Source: Algoriphagus limi
GTDB lineage: Bacteria > Bacteroidota > Bacteroidia > Cytophagales > Cyclobacteriaceae
NCBI RefSeq assembly: GCF_024919275.1
Contig: NZ_JANWGH010000002.1
Coordinates: 372,001-436,000 of the forward strand
Direction of reading: 5' to 3'
DNA: 64,000 bases
Shown: piece by piece, positions 5,702 through 16,596 of the stretch
Layout: every line of letters begins with the position of its first letter
How positions within the stretch are numbered: position 1 is the stretch's first letter
Made by a program: the position numbers and the translations under genes
Notes under the pieces: model-generated
The model's input: only the letters and a program-made list of their open reading frames with translations
Told to the model about the DNA's origin: nothing
The model's database searches: none

Positions 5702-8257
5702 TTATCGGCTTGTTCCGCCGTTAATTACTTGTCCAAAGAAAATCGCATTCAAGAACAACTTATTCGTACCAAACCAGAAAGCTCGGAAGTTCATGTTGTC
5801 AGCGAAAGCCACTACTCGGCCTCGCCCAACACCACGAACCTGAATCACAGATCCATTTTGAATACCCGGCAAATTGCTTGGATGCAGGTATCCAGAAGCG
5901 AGTGGATTATCAGTATATACCAATGGGTTGGCATAAGGATTTTCAGCTGGCTCTAAGAATAAATTATCATTTCGGAAGGTGTGGATATCCGCTCCGGTAT
6001 AACCATAACCGATCGGATGAGTCAAATCCAATTTTGCATTGAAGATAGCTCCACCAGTAACCTTAGCTCCGGTTGCATTCTGGTAATCTCCATATGGTAG
6101 CTGCAGTCCTTTGTCTGATGTATCAAGATTTCTGAATTTAACATCGGTCACTTCATTTTGTGCCAACCAACGTAGCGCTCTACCTTTTGCAAGTAGAGTA
6201 TTGCCTCGAGAAACCCAACCTCGCAAGGCATTCGCACCGGAAGACCCTAAACTACCATAGGAACCATCAGGCATGATAATCACATTGTATCGCTCAATCA
6301 CAGAGCTGCTTACCCGATCTACTGGCAATAAGGTAATTGGCATTTCTATTCGCTGATCCATTAAATGCCATATTTCACCGGCCTCATAGCTGTCCACTCC
6401 TCCATCAACTAAAAGGGCAACTTTTGGAATTTCCAATGGAGTGATAAAAGTAGACCCCATATTGATTCCTGAAGTGTAACCTGTACTGATCGCATGAATA
6501 TCTACTGTGGATGCAGCGGCGATCTCCTGAAGTTTTTGGAAGAACTGCTGATCTGACTGACCTGATTCTCCTTTATCCACTAGGATAGTTCCTCGACCAA
6601 AACTCTTTCCTTCTGGCGTGCTAAATTCCGCATTGGCTACTCGTACTCGATAACCTTCTTTCATCAGCTTATAAGCCGCTTTTGGCGCATAGTAATCCGT
6701 CCATTCCAAAGCATATTGATAGGCACCAGCTCCACCAACTACTTGTCCTTGCTTTAAGCTGAAGTCATTCTTATTGATTTCTTTCACATTGGCCAAGTTG
6801 AGGATACGGCTATTCAAAGCCATGTAATCCAAGCCGAAAGCCATAGGATAAGTCCAAGCAGAAATGTCATAAAATAAGGAATCCTGAAAAGTAGTCCTCG
6901 TCTCAAACATTGCCTTTATTAATCGGTACTGCGGTTGATCTGCAGGTACGATGTAGGAATTTTCACTTTTAAATTCCTTGCCATTCACTGTGATGTCTTC
7001 CTGAAGGCTGAAGACTTTGATATCATGCTGCAAAATCAGATCCGCCAAATGATAGCTTCTCGCATCATCCTCTGCACTTCCGAAAATATAGGCCTTGTTT
7101 ACATCAGCAGCTGTTTCTTCAGCAATTCCTTGATAGAAATCGCGCATCCACTGATTTAACTCTACCCGCATTTCCTTTGCCGCTTGGAAAGAAGAAAGGT
7201 TTGCAGTGAATTGATTTCGAATAGTAAAAGGAAAACTCAACATACCATTCGCCGACTCCTGAAGGTGTCCTCGAGAACTTGCCTGCTCGAAAAGAATTCC
7301 TATCGATCCCTGTACGTCCGGATAGGTTGACCCTTTTCCATAGTAAAAGTCATCGTAGTTTTCTTGATTATAGTACAAGGACCCAATTTTATCCAAAGCT
7401 TTGGCATGATAGGTTCCGATCTTCTCGGTCAATTCAAAATTCTTTGTTGGAGTAAGTGGATGGGTTCGGGAAGGAACACCTGGCTGGAAGAAGAAGGTGC
7501 TATTAGTTCCCATTTCATGGAAATCCAGATGAATATTCGGTAACCAACTTTGGAAAACTCGAACGCGATTTCTTGATTCAGGATGCTGAACAGGCAACCA
7601 ATCCCGATTCAAGTCAAACCAATAATGATTAGTACGACCTCTTGGCCAAGCCTCATTATATTCTCGACCATTTGGATCACCATTTAAGTTGTAAGCCTTA
7701 TGTGAGTTTACCCAAGAAGCAAATCGATTGAGTCCATCAGGATTGATAGCTGGATCCAAAAGGAGAACAATATTTTCAAGATCCGCTTCGATTTCATTGG
7801 CAGCAACAAAATGATAGGCCGCCAAAAGGGATGCATTGGCGCCACTTGGTTCGTTTCCATGAACAGAATAGCCCATGAACATTACCACAGGCATGGACTC
7901 AATGGAAACGCTAGCATTGGGATCTCTTAATTTTTTTCGGTCGGATTTGATTTGATCCAATCTTGCCAAATTGGCTGGCGAACTAATGGTCAATAAAGTC
8001 TGAGGGCGTTTTTCATAACTACGACCGGTCTCTTCAAAAATAACACGATCAGATGCAGCAGCTACAGCTTTCATATACATGACCAACTGATCATGAGTCA
8101 CGTGCCATTCACCTACTTCATATCCCAAAACCTCCTTTGGAGTCGGAATATCAGGATTATAGGTATATCCTTCAGGCAAATAATAAGACAAATCTACTTG
8201 AGCACTTACCCAAGTACTCAGAAAGCAAAGAGAAAGAAGAAATACAATTCTTTTCAT
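5702..8257 (-). CDS. Exported M14 family zinc carboxypeptidase
   Basis: An 851-residue secreted metallopeptidase with signal peptide MKRIVFLLSLCFLSTWVSAQ. Zinc ligands follow the M14 pattern: HGNE at residues 133-136 and the distal His247 (LDFHEMG). Substrate-contact residues appear in FDLNRDW (about 215-220), and the catalytic Glu is probably Glu324 (GILFEQASSRG). The C-terminal third (VALLVDGGVDSYEAGEIW onward, about residue 610) looks like a class I glutamine-amidotransferase-like fold, as in many long Bacteroidota M14 peptidases. It probably trims peptides in the periplasm or outside the cell. It is read leftward as a single gene; the neighbouring genes to its right are divergent. Confidence 0.92.
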   Translation of the reverse strand: MKRIVFLLSLCFLSTWVSAQVDLSYYLPEGYTYNPDIPTPKEVLGYEVGEWHVTHDQLVMYMKAVAAASDRVIFEETGRSYEKRPQTLLTISSPANLARLDQIKSDRKKLRDPNASVSIESMPVVMFMGYSVHGNEPSGANASLLAAYHFVAANEIEADLENIVLLLDPAINPDGLNRFASWVNSHKAYNLNGDPNGREYNEAWPRGRTNHYWFDLNRDWLPVQHPESRNRVRVFQSWLPNIHLDFHEMGTNSTFFFQPGVPSRTHPLTPTKNFELTEKIGTYHAKALDKIGSLYYNQENYDDFYYGKGSTYPDVQGSIGILFEQASSRGHLQESANGMLSFPFTIRNQFTANLSSFQAAKEMRVELNQWMRDFYQGIAEETAADVNKAYIFGSAEDDARSYHLADLILQHDIKVFSLQEDITVNGKEFKSENSYIVPADQPQYRLIKAMFETRTTFQDSLFYDISAWTYPMAFGLDYMALNSRILNLANVKEINKNDFSLKQGQVVGGAGAYQYALEWTDYYAPKAAYKLMKEGYRVRVANAEFSTPEGKSFGRGTILVDKGESGQSDQQFFQKLQEIAAASTVDIHAISTGYTSGINMGSTFITPLEIPKVALLVDGGVDSYEAGEIWHLMDQRIEMPITLLPVDRVSSSVIERYNVIIMPDGSYGSLGSSGANALRGWVSRGNTLLAKGRALRWLAQNEVTDVKFRNLDTSDKGLQLPYGDYQNATGAKVTGGAIFNAKLDLTHPIGYGYTGADIHTFRNDNLFLEPAENPYANPLVYTDNPLASGYLHPSNLPGIQNGSVIQVRGVGRGRVVAFADNMNFRAFWFGTNKLFLNAIFFGQVINGGTSR

Positions 8258-13859: not shown

Positions 13860-15002
13860 ATGAAGGTCTATTTTGACAATGCCGCCACTACGGCCATGGA
13901 TGATCGAGTAATCGAAGCCATGCTGCCTTTTATGAAAAATCATTACGGAAATCCATCTTCAGTTCACAGTCATGGCCGAGAAGTGCGTACTGCAATTGAA
14001 AGAGCTCGTAAAAAAGTGGCAGAATTACTCAATGCAACACCTTCTGAAATCTTCTTTACCTCAGGGGGAACAGAAGCTGATAATACAGCTTTGGTTTGTG
14101 GGATTGAAACACATGGCATAAAGCATGCGATCACTTCGCCTCTTGAACACCATGCAGTATTACATACTTTGGAAGTATGTGAGCAAAAAGGAAACATCCA
14201 ACTTCACACTTTGGATGTCAATGCAAAAGGTGAAATTGATCTGAACCAATTAGAGGAGCTTTTGAAAAAGTATCCGAATGCTTTGGTTTCTTTAATGCAT
14301 GCAAACAATGAGATCGGCAACCTCAATGATTTGCAGAAAATCGGATCTTTGGCTCAGGAATATGGAGCATTTTTCCATTCGGATACGGTGCAGACCATGG
14401 GACATTATACACATGATCTAAAAAATCTTCCTGTGGATGCGATTGTAGCAGGAGGACATAAATTCCATGGCCCGAAAGGTTCAGGCTTTTTATATGTACG
14501 CAAGGACAAAAAAATCCATCCATTTATTCATGGGGGTGCTCAGGAACGAAACATGCGGGGTGGAACTGAAAATGTGATTGGAATTATCGGAATCGCAAAG
14601 GCTTTGGAACTTGCCTATGAGGACATGGCAGGTCATGAAGCCCATATCAAAGCACTTAAGAAGCACTTTATCGAAAAGTTGAAAGCTGAAATCCCTGGAG
14701 TAGAATTCAATGGGCTTTCCGGGCAAACTGATAAATCACTTTATACCGTATTGAATGTCAGCATGCCTCCGTCGGAAGCAAATTCCGGAATGCTGCTATT
14801 CAACTTGGACTTGGCGGGAATCTCTGCCTCTGGAGGATCTGCATGCAGTTCTGGTGCTACTGTGGGATCTCATGTTTTGCGGGCTTTAAACCACAATCCT
14901 GAAAGAGACTCTGTTCGTTTCTCTTTCAGCCGATTCAATACAATTGAAGAGGTTGACTACACCATAGAGAAACTAAAAGAACTCTACGCAGTAGAAGCAT
15001 AA
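13860..15002 (+). CDS. Cysteine desulfurase (IscS/NifS family)
   Basis: A 380-residue class V aminotransferase-fold PLP enzyme that takes sulfur from cysteine for Fe-S clusters or thiolated tRNA. The PLP lysine is Lys201 in GGHKFHGPKG and the persulfide-forming Cys329 sits in the loop GGSACSSG, as in group I (NifS/IscS) desulfurases. SGGTEADN near residue 68 and the His of SPLEHHA at about 97 complete the active site. No iscU or sufBCD gene is adjacent, so its client pathway is open. It probably shares a transcript with glmM, and a strong terminator follows. Confidence 0.93.
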   Translation: MKVYFDNAATTAMDDRVIEAMLPFMKNHYGNPSSVHSHGREVRTAIERARKKVAELLNATPSEIFFTSGGTEADNTALVCGIETHGIKHAITSPLEHHAVLHTLEVCEQKGNIQLHTLDVNAKGEIDLNQLEELLKKYPNALVSLMHANNEIGNLNDLQKIGSLAQEYGAFFHSDTVQTMGHYTHDLKNLPVDAIVAGGHKFHGPKGSGFLYVRKDKKIHPFIHGGAQERNMRGGTENVIGIIGIAKALELAYEDMAGHEAHIKALKKHFIEKLKAEIPGVEFNGLSGQTDKSLYTVLNVSMPPSEANSGMLLFNLDLAGISASGGSACSSGATVGSHVLRALNHNPERDSVRFSFSRFNTIEEVDYTIEKLKELYAVEA

Positions 15003-15031
15003 AAAAAAGAGCCTTCGAGGCTCTTTTTTAT
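15003..15031 (+). terminator. Rho-independent terminator
   Basis: A stem GAGCC/GGCTC (15009-15013 with 15019-15023), extended by an A-run pairing with a T-run, follows directly after the desulfurase stop codon. Confidence 0.88.
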
Positions 15032-15040
15032 TTTCATATT

Positions 15041-15152
15041 CTCCCACAGATATCCACGGAAAAAATCACAGATTAACACGGATATATGATGAGAATGCTT
15101 AATCTTTTTTGCTCATAAAATCTGTGCTCAAAATCTGTGAAAATCTGTGGGA
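15041..15152. repeat. Palindromic repeat element, copy 1 (downstream of the GxxExxY gene)
   Basis: The ends TCCCACAGAT (15042-15051) and ATCTGTGGGA (15143-15152) are perfect inverted repeats. Each arm is built from spaced heptamers: CACAGAT or CACGGA(T) at 15045, 15055, 15067 and 15077 on the left, and the complement ATCTGTG at 15120, 15133 and 15143 on the right, so the element is both a palindrome and a short array with about 10-13-base period. The first 41 bases match copy 2 at 35 positions. Confidence 0.8.
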
Positions 15153-15164
15153 AATTAAATAAGA

Positions 15165-15545
15165 CTAAAGGTAACCATTAATCTTTCGATGGATCTCCTT
15201 ATCAATTTTTGTAGTGTTAAAATTGACGAGCAACCCAACTTTTAACCCTGAAAGTCTCAAATAGGTTAGTAATTGCTTGTGATGAACTTCATGGAGATTT
15301 TCAAGAGATTTGATCTCCACAATTACTTTTTTCTCTACTAATAAATCAATACGATACCCCACATTCAGTTTTAACTCTTCATAAATCAAAGGAAGACCAA
15401 CTTGATGCTCCACCAATAGCCCCTCTTGGACCAATTCATATCCTAAAGCCGCCTCATAACTTGATTCCAAAAGTCCCGGTCCCAATGAATTATAAACTTT
15501 AAAAATCGCTCCCCTGATCAAAAATGTTAATTCATTTTCATGCAT
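15165..15545 (-). CDS. GxxExxY family protein (PD-(D/E)XK nuclease-like)
   Basis: A 126-residue protein with the family-naming motif GLLESSY at residues 24-30 and a PD-(D/E)XK-type core: Asp67 in YRIDLLV, then Glu77 and Lys79 in VEIKS, followed by the helix HHKQLLTYLRLSG. Length and motif order match the GxxExxY/PDDEXK_3 family. The fold predicts a metal-dependent nuclease, but no substrate is established to my knowledge. The gene is bracketed by two related palindromic elements: copy 2 lies about 60 bases upstream and copy 1 about 12 bases downstream. No host-like operon partner is present, which suggests a self-contained cassette of about 700 bases. Confidence 0.9.
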   Translation of the reverse strand: MHENELTFLIRGAIFKVYNSLGPGLLESSYEAALGYELVQEGLLVEHQVGLPLIYEELKLNVGYRIDLLVEKKVIVEIKSLENLHEVHHKQLLTYLRLSGLKVGLLVNFNTTKIDKEIHRKINGYL

Positions 15546-15606
15546 GAATAAATTTAAAAAATAGTTGGATTGAGTTTAGTTCTTAACCCAATTTTTACAC
15601 TAAATA

Positions 15607-15736
15607 TTTTCTCCCACAGATATCCACTGAAAAGGTCACAGATTAGAACAGAAATTTGATCAGGATTTATAAACCTTTGAGTTCAAAAATCTGGAAATAT
15701 CTTTGTAACAAATCCGTGAAAACCTGTGGGAGAAAA
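15607..15736. repeat. Palindromic repeat element, copy 2 (upstream of the GxxExxY gene)
   Basis: The outer ends form a perfect 13-base inverted repeat, TTTTCTCCCACAG (15607-15619) with its complement at 15724-15736. CACAGAT heptamers recur at 15615 and 15637 on the left, and degenerate complements at 15689, 15699, 15712 and 15722 on the right. The left arm lies in the same orientation as copy 1, 570 bases away. The right arm is more decayed than that of copy 1. It ends 12 bases before the stop of the next leftward gene and could fold as its terminator. Confidence 0.8.
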
Positions 15737-15747
15737 CTCGAGATTTT

Positions 15748-16494
15748 TTACTTTTTCGCTCCTGGATATCCGATTGCATACGGAGTCCAAATCTCATAGA
15801 TCGGATTTCCGGTTGAGCTTAATCCGCTATGATGCCACTCTCCATCGATCACCTCATAATTGAAGCTCAAACTAGCTCCTACTCGGGAATCATCTCGGGA
15901 GAAGAAAGTAATATTCTCTGTGTACTTTCCATCAACAGCTGTGTAGGTTCCTCCACCCGAGCCACTAAACTCTTTGGTTTCGGAATTAAAAGCCACCCAC
16001 TGAAATCTTCCTCCTGATAGGATTTTGATCGTTCTTCTAGCGCCAGGAGTTGATCGACGGATTTCATCATCCCGCTTTCTTCCTGTGATCACCCAGTTTC
16101 CGGTCAAATCATCCTTCTCATCAGAAACCCTTTCCCAGATTTCAACCAGCATTTTACCATTGATCTCGCTGGATATTACCATCTTTCCATCTACCCAATC
16201 CAAGGTATATTTATTGACAGTCCCTACTTGAAATGGATCCAAGGTGAAAAAATCCAAGGTTTCAGTGTAATCATTTCCATTCAATTCAAAAGGCCCTCCT
16301 CCGGCACCTACGAAATGATTGTCTGCCACCTGCTTAGCTCCAAAAGCGAAATAACCGTCTTGATAAATTTTGATGTATTCCACATCTTCCACAGGCTGAC
16401 CATCTTGATGGGTCATTTTCCAAGATCCCTCTATGGACTGAGCTTTTACCCAGCCAAAGAGCATTGTCAAAGCGATTAAAAGGTATTTTCTCAT
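15748..16494 (-). CDS. Secreted protein with two lipocalin-like repeat domains, unknown function
   Basis: A 248-residue protein starting at the ATG at 16494, which gives the signal peptide MRKYLLIALTMLFGWVKAQ; the longer frame to 16578 would bury it. The mature part holds two related beta-rich domains: residues about 20-125 (IEGSWKMTHQDG) and 130-245 (LTGNWVITGRKRD). Both contain a G-S/N-W start, a gly-rich GAGGGPF- or GSGGGTY-type turn, and a conserved -YTE-(T/N)-(L/I)-(D/T)-FF- strand. This is an internal duplication of a lipocalin-like strand set seen in uncharacterised Bacteroidota proteins. No catalytic residue is evident. Confidence 0.75.
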   Translation of the reverse strand: MRKYLLIALTMLFGWVKAQSIEGSWKMTHQDGQPVEDVEYIKIYQDGYFAFGAKQVADNHFVGAGGGPFELNGNDYTETLDFFTLDPFQVGTVNKYTLDWVDGKMVISSEINGKMLVEIWERVSDEKDDLTGNWVITGRKRDDEIRRSTPGARRTIKILSGGRFQWVAFNSETKEFSGSGGGTYTAVDGKYTENITFFSRDDSRVGASLSFNYEVIDGEWHHSGLSSTGNPIYEIWTPYAIGYPGAKK

Positions 16495-16596
16495 GATTTT
16501 TATCTCTGTTTGTAGAAAATTACCAAAACAAACACTGGAATTCCAACCTTTTCTTTTCAGCGGTTGGAATTCTTTCAATTTTGTATAGACTCAAGT

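Follow-up and report, generated by a model that had tools for sequence, protein, structure and literature searches.

GxxExxY genes and their lineage-specific heptamer arrays, probable partners of the REP/RAYT type, as seen from a locus of Algoriphagus limi

Introduction

The closest described systems in which a gene is associated with palindromes are the REP/RAYT pairs. According to the available sections of the corresponding papers, RAYTs are always flanked by inverted REPs, co-evolve with them and correlate with the abundance of the cognate REPs (PMC2817692, PMC3686654). The same kind of partial text presents RAYTs as fast evolving (PMC2817692), and as vertically inherited, domesticated transposases (PMC8049555). 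At the level of the protein, the relevant comparison is with Cas4, which, in the accessible part of its description, carries four conserved cysteines and an Fe-S cluster (PMC5704561).

The proteins considered here belong to the GxxExxY family, for which the open-licence papers that we found, including the available part of PMC8934634, describe neither a function nor a repeat partner. The starting point was a 64-kb window of the A. limi genome (the whole stretch of DNA analysed), in which a GxxExxY gene lies between two related palindromes. The original prediction named no established function for such a pairing, and we likewise found no paper on it in the open-licence literature.

Results

The GxxExxY unit of A. 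limi

The GxxExxY gene and its palindromes make up the whole gap between a cysteine desulfurase gene (nifS) and a convergent gene, here termed lipo (Table 1), for which neither Pfam nor NCBIfam gave a match. The structure originally described for the locus was recovered in all its parts. The protein has 126 residues, with Asp67, Glu77 and Lys79 in place. The left arms of the two palindromes, whose starts lie 570 bp apart, match at 35 of 41 bases, and both elements have perfect inverted ends, of 10 bp in copy 1 (15042–15051 and 15143–15152) and of 13 bp in copy 2 (15607–15619 and 15724–15736). They are built of CAC(A/G)GAT words, nine of the 16 present on both strands of the window being located at 15045–15718. 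Beyond that description, the words occupy positions at about 0, 10, 22 and 32 bp within the arms, some of them being degenerate. Rfam gave no match in the window. Elsewhere in it, a 25-bp tandem unit in two imperfect copies (6828–6878) is probably trivial.

A search of the A. limi genome for the arm CTCCCACAGATATCCAC, proposed with the original prediction and run with up to two mismatches, returned just the two copies of this locus. CACRGAT pairs with a spacer of 1–6 bases have five matches in the whole genome, three at the window locus and two elsewhere; the latter are not part of a palindrome and, judged by eye, look like chance pairs, probably within coding sequence.

Table 1. Coordinates of the GxxExxY unit of A. 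limi and of its flanks in the 64-kb window.
Feature	Coordinates	Strand	Remarks
Cysteine desulfurase (NifS/IscS-like) gene	13860..15002	+	Left anchor of the orthologous gap; flank, outside the unit
Inverted repeat and T-run behind the desulfurase gene	14990..15042	+	Terminator-like by eye; palindrome 1 starts just after
Palindrome 1, inverted arrays	15042..15152		+ words at 15045, 15067, 15077; - words at 15120, 15133, 15143
GxxExxY protein gene, 126 aa, predicted Cas4/RecB-like PD-(D/E)XK core	15165..15545	-	ORF, profiles, alignment, model
Palindrome 2, inverted arrays	15607..15736		+ words at 15615, 15637; - words at 15712, 15722
lipo, uncharacterised convergent gene	15748..16578	-	Right anchor of the gap; flank, outside the unit

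The protein is a predicted nuclease of the PD-(D/E)XK type

The window protein matches TIGR04256 with 136.6 bits (curated cut-off 35) and PF13366 (PDDEXK_3) with 136.5 bits (cut-off 22). PF13366 is its sole Pfam match at E 0.001, a threshold at which no match to a tyrosine (HUH) transposase of the IS200/IS605-related type was obtained. Residues D67, E77, K79, G22, G24, E27, Y30, N108 and F109 are invariant in 20 aligned relatives, and Q91 and Y95 are nearly so. The order D...ExK...QxxxY is typical of RecB/Cas4-type nucleases. AlphaFold2 gave a confident model (mean pLDDT 96.2), and the predicted fold and the conserved D...ExK (D67, E77, K79) are those expected of a PD-(D/E)XK protein. The best fold matches of the model in the PDB, where the protein has no sequence relative, are of the Cas4 and lambda-exonuclease types (TMq about 0.5), none of them with E < 0.001.

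The likeness to Cas4 consists of this residue order, of the fold matches and of profile matches that are weak and were obtained for two of three GxxExxY proteins. Unlike Cas4, with its four cysteines, the 126-aa window protein has no cysteine at all, nor was a link to CRISPR genes noticed here. We consider the GxxExxY protein to be a small nuclease of the Cas4/RecB-type PD-(D/E)XK class, an assignment and an activity predicted from profiles and model. Ratios of dN/dS were low, between 0.026 and 0.139 in 14 of 15 pairs, the remaining pair being not computable.

Arrays of heptamers adjoin GxxExxY genes in general

The genome of A. limi has five GxxExxY genes. Matches to the family were found in 40 of 58 relatives and in 74 of 148 genomes of the phylum, and were over the family cut-off in 39 and 73 of them, respectively. 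Broken copies, with stops or reduced to fragments, are many beside intact ones in relatives (e.g. G037, G050, G015 and G004), which suggests repeated loss.

CAC(A/G)GAT words are absent from the loci of the other four A. limi genes, which have arrays of their own: CCACATAGGATCATAG (L003), CCACGAAGGACACGAAG (L004), CCACAGAGGACACAG (L005) and CGCAACGACGCAAAGGCGCAGCG (L006). The suggestion to look for the repeats near other GxxExxY genes was therefore fruitful, with the difference that the words found there are others. As the window arm is unique to its locus in the A. limi genome and the other four copies are devoid of CAC(A/G)GAT, one repeat common to all GxxExxY genes is ruled out: the association first proposed is general, its single shared repeat is not, and each lineage has its own word. 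In the right flank of L004 (about 2000–2150), repeats of another kind (AATAACCTTTAACC / AACTATTAACGATTAACC) adjoin the arrays.

The generality of the association was evaluated in two ways. In a template-free approach, the 400-bp flanks on either side of the gene were compared and their best inverted match was scored at 91 of 94 loci, three loci lacking flanks having been dropped. The median was 35; outer flanks gave 20 and swapped flanks 21. Of the 91 loci, 69 exceeded the 99th percentile of the outer-flank control, a level that 12% of swapped flank pairs also pass. When repeated with 60 further loci, the median was 32.5 versus 20, and 37 of the 60 were above the 95th percentile of swapped pairs.

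The second approach used the template C-R-C-N-N-V-K, counted in same-strand pairs and chosen after seeing the data. A de novo 7-mer finder, which it replaced, performed weakly, with 40 of 231 loci exceeding the 99th percentile of controls. Among 243 loci, template words occur at 18.5–19.7 per kb up to 100 bp from the gene versus about 1 per kb beyond 1 kb. Two or more are present within 400 bp at 200 loci, versus 45 loci at a distance of 1000–1400 bp; the remaining 43 loci are without two words within 400 bp. Array words stand on both sides of the gene at 144 of the 243 loci, so that the two-sided layout is a strong tendency and not universal. At least two words were also found at 36 of 60 held-out loci and at 75 of 80 loci taken from titled records. 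The latter are titled as Bacteroidetes, Planctomycetota, Anaerolineae, Alpha- and Betaproteobacteria, Mariprofundus, Ignavibacteria, Opitutaceae and one Methanothrix MAG, these taxa being read from record titles, which for MAGs can be wrong.

Several divergent GxxExxY proteins (L031, L035, L048, L056, L078, L079 and L093) have inverted arms with words like CAGGATT or ATGATT, which fall outside the template and were left out of the word counts. Neighbouring genes were convergent in 34 cases, divergent in 20 and co-directional in 163, that is, with little bias toward convergent neighbours. With one GxxExxY protein as query, none of 50,697 phage records and 8 of 72,556 plasmid records gave a match.

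Words are specific to gene lineages and change in concert around the gene

Of the 243 loci, 183 allowed a consensus word to be defined. The protein tree comprises 173 proteins, ten of the 183 loci with at least three words having been left out (in-frame stop, short protein, or failure in the motif filter). Words follow this tree: it requires 70 word changes, whereas 100 shuffles required 119 on average and never fewer than 112, and 54 changes of word class (positions 2, 5, 6 and 7), versus 107 shuffled (minimum 101). At the 144 two-sided loci, the words to the left and to the right of a gene have the same base at positions 2, 5 and 7 with frequencies of 0.83, 0.83 and 0.93, compared with 0.54, 0.45 and 0.75 between different loci. 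At position 4, agreement is 0.59 within a gene versus 0.44 between loci.

Words also change in concert around a gene. When right arrays were permuted within groups of genes that share a site, agreement was 0.880 for the actual pairs versus 0.828 for the permuted ones (p = 0.0005). In these groups, likeness is 0.849 between the words on the two sides of one gene versus 0.784 for same-side words of orthologs, the within-gene words being the more alike in 77% of 158 comparisons. The idea that words are better conserved than their flanks was not borne out, as between close orthologs they hardly are (330/364 versus 3826/4288).

Arm architecture and a candidate recognition code

The two arms of a palindrome share spacer lengths in 85% of 183 arm pairs, versus 36% in controls (maximum 46%). 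Spacer bases, in contrast, are not shared or complementary between arms (0.385 versus 0.348 in controls, maximum 0.438). Equal spacer lengths together with unlike spacer bases suit a protein that reads the words in double-stranded DNA, in register. The span of three words peaks at 21 bp (125 of 392); since spans of 16–20 bp are also common, a strict one-turn spacing fails for some word classes.

The protein residues that co-vary most with base 5 of the word are 7 (phi 0.72) and 8 (phi 0.67), the column median being 0.20. T7 goes with G5, S7 plus K8 or N8 goes with A5, and Y8 is present in all six T5 loci; the window protein has T7 and F8 as proposed readers of base 5. On a tree built without residues 6–9, 14.0 of 25 contrasts for residue 7 went the same way and 0.0 the opposite way (p = 1.2e-4, uncorrected for columns). 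The corresponding values for residue 8 were 11.0 and 0.9, and those for residue 112, the best of the rest, were 11.1 and 0.7. Restricted to supported branches, which leaves only 8 pairs, contrasts had the right direction and were not significant.

The rule made up of these pairings fits 115 of 121 training loci when the residues are placed by their distance from a conserved motif. For the held-out loci, 34 of 60 of which were scorable, the rule was fixed before the sequences were obtained. In its written form it made 11 correct predictions out of 14 (p = 0.18), with 9 of 10 for the T7 part and 2 of 4 for the K/N8 part. With residues placed by motif distance, a post hoc choice made after an alignment error surfaced in one miss (L384), it was right in 9 of 10 (p = 0.033), 9 of the 34 loci being without the anchor. 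A code by which residues 7–8 specify word base 5 is, on this co-variation, likely, not proved.

Palindromes of the cognate word elsewhere in genomes

Away from the gene, palindromes of a given word are frequent mainly in genomes that carry the cognate gene, with exceptions. Three words were counted in 37 genomes of the genus, the counts including the arrays adjoining the gene. CACAGAT pairs had 2, 3, 4, 6, 28, 29, 35 and 46 matches (median 17) in the eight genomes with a CACAGAT-type gene, versus a median of 0 (range 0–6) in the 29 others (p = 1e-5). For genomes with and without the cognate gene, medians were 9 versus 0.5 for CACATAG (p = 2e-4), and values of 5 versus 1 were obtained for CGCAAAG (p = 0.007). 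Non-cognate tests of the three words gave p = 0.39, 0.098 and 0.19, and reversed patterns, used as control, had 0–2 matches per genome and strand. For this comparison, word assignment at L003, L053, L091 and L033 relied on visual inspection or on protein clade, and some GxxExxY matches in G001, G007, G016 and G032, as well as fragments elsewhere, were left out and counted as no cognate gene seen. The exceptions are four of the 28 genomes in which no CACATAG-type gene was seen, with 11–12 CACATAG pairs; three of these four are incomplete assemblies.

In G016, the 20 array sites inspected consist of arrays or palindromes with varied spacers and two main arm designs, words being placed at 0-10-22-32 or 0-9-19, three of them being inside an open frame of at least 100 codons. 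A single-arm array of this genome (L353), located behind a terminator-like T-run, is absent from G023, where the adjoining sequence is 91% identical.

Word arrays are also found within tandem units: one of 203 bp in 5.7 copies, 97% matching, in L361 (G224, 1045–2181), and one of 197 bp in 2.8 copies, 95% matching, in L360 (G034, 1236–1793). Such levels of matching indicate recent local copying. Around the middle of L288 (G166), a stretch of a few hundred bases contains nested arrays of several different words, as would result from insertion of one element into the next.

Orthologous sites with and without the unit

The nifS gene was matched in 57 of 59 genomes. Thirty nifS loci were examined, and 27 of them had a readable nifS–lipo gap. 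Four gaps contain the gene with palindromes, three contain arrays without the gene (L253, L255 and L257), 13 are of 50–106 bp and seven hold other sequence. Orthologous loci without the whole block, which the original prediction had proposed to look for, therefore exist, as the 13 short gaps have no element. It had also been reasoned that the cassette idea would fail if all relatives kept the gene at this place without the repeats; all four gaps with the gene also have palindromes. The 106-bp gap of L268 (G213, 1995–2101) has AGCAGATCAACGCAGA inside a terminator-like hairpin, perhaps a remnant of one arm.

Genomes G219 and G215 carry the gene at the window's site, 87.8% identical where nifS is 90.2%. 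The word CACAGAT of A. limi is replaced there by CGC(A/T)GAT, and the palindromes stand on one side only, behind the stop codon of the gene. Constant bracketing of the gene by palindromes fails in these two genomes. Within the genus, 53 of the 74 copies retrieved fall into ten shared-site groups, set by hand from a pair table and with some links that rest on one flank. Frequent jumping of gene-bearing units is thus not supported in the genus and, since most copies sit at shared orthologous sites, "cassette" must not be taken to mean "shown to jump". Proteins at one shared site can differ by over 40%, so that replacement at a hot spot is possible.

Neither a target duplication nor an exact junction, the marks of a transposable element, was found at the sites without the element. 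A clean empty site was also looked for in the closest relative, G166, and discarded: the site of L003 has a different repeat there, and the flank of L004 has no match. In L281 (G166, about 900–1500), units of this different repeat (GTCCCTACGGGAC / ATGCCGTAGGCAT) fill the place of the L003 unit of A. limi, which may be a shared insertion hot spot.

Discussion

The GxxExxY loci reproduce most features of REP/RAYT pairs. The gene has a strong tendency to be flanked by inverted palindromes, with words on both sides at 144 of 243 loci; enzyme and flanking palindrome diversify together; and, in the 37 genomes compared and with exceptions, presence of the gene goes with abundance of its cognate palindromes. 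The differences lie in the enzyme, a PF13366 protein with a predicted nuclease-like fold; in the palindromes, which are arrays of heptamers in register; in their copy number, tens at most as against tens to over a thousand for REPs; and in the rate of evolution, as dN/dS is low in GxxExxY genes and RAYTs, in the accessible text, evolve fast (PMC2817692). As most REP/RAYT features recur with an unrelated enzyme, the system would be REP/RAYT-like in its working and not a RAYT.

What the sequence statistics show is the association and its inverted layout, words that are specific to lineages and change in concert, the presence of cognate palindromes elsewhere, and low dN/dS. As word and protein change together, they look like partners, and taken as a whole the data are probably best explained by a predicted nuclease and its own heptamer arrays behaving as a pair of the REP/RAYT type. 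The GxxExxY protein would recognise the heptamer C-R-C-N-N-V-K, in which positions 2, 5 and 7 depend on the lineage and position 4 is almost free. Its own gene is adjoined by inverted arrays of, as a rule, 2–4 words in a fixed spacing register; protein and word diversify together, and genomes with the cognate gene accumulate non-coding palindromes of that word elsewhere. Of the original alternatives, partners in the REP/RAYT manner or binding or cleavage sites of the protein, the partnership is supported; binding to the words is likely, as judged from co-variation, and would be direct and on double-stranded DNA, residues 7–8 at the start of helix 1 reading word base 5. The protein may also cut at the palindromes. 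A subsequent cut-and-repair copying could then spread the palindromes and keep the words of one gene alike, which would explain the concerted change of words around one gene.

Three other explanations were weighed. The arrays might be mere operators, bound by the protein for the control of its own gene with neither cutting nor copying. The maximal array density within 100 bp of the gene, the co-variation of words and protein and the permanence of most genus copies at shared sites are what operators would give, and yet we hold this explanation to be unlikely: arrays lie on both sides of the gene at 144 of 243 loci, or only behind its stop codon in G215 and G219, and in several genomes palindromes of the cognate word are far from the gene. 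A somewhat lower probability is given to hairpins of single-stranded DNA or RNA, such as terminators or mRNA stabilisers, next to which the GxxExxY protein would be a hairpin-binding protein or an unrelated neighbour. The arms are indeed inverted, the elements intergenic, and two of them located just behind terminator-like T-runs. Nevertheless, arm spacers match in length without being complementary (0.385 versus 0.348, maximum 0.438), so that spacer bases lend this reading no support, the word follows the lineage of the protein, and Rfam has no match in the window.

Common descent alone, that is, word and protein inherited together as neighbours that make no contact, appears the least probable of the three, and very improbable in itself. 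The presence of 53 of 74 genus copies in ten shared-site groups agrees with it, as does a conservation of words that, in close orthologs, hardly exceeds that of the flanks. It does not account for words of one gene that are more alike across the gene (0.849) than same-side words of orthologs (0.784, p = 0.0005), for cognate palindromes elsewhere in the genome that track the gene, for changes of residue 7 together with word base 5 in independent contrasts, or for the recurrence of the layout in records titled with several phyla.

Returning to the explanation as a pair of predicted nuclease and heptamer arrays, a broader version of it is tentative, and we give it slightly less than even chances. 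It proposes a second, independently evolved REP-like world, extending over several phyla, with private heptamer codes read by the start of helix 1 and palindromes driven by cut-and-repair copying. In it, T7 would stand for G5, S7 or A7 with K8/N8 for A5, and Y8 for T5.

GxxExxY genes are common, and no described function was found for them; they now have a likely DNA partner and a predicted recognition rule. If the proposal is true, unrelated enzymes gave rise to the REP/RAYT way of life on more than one occasion, and the family would constitute a natural library of protein–DNA pairs, each with a specificity that changes along with all of its sites.
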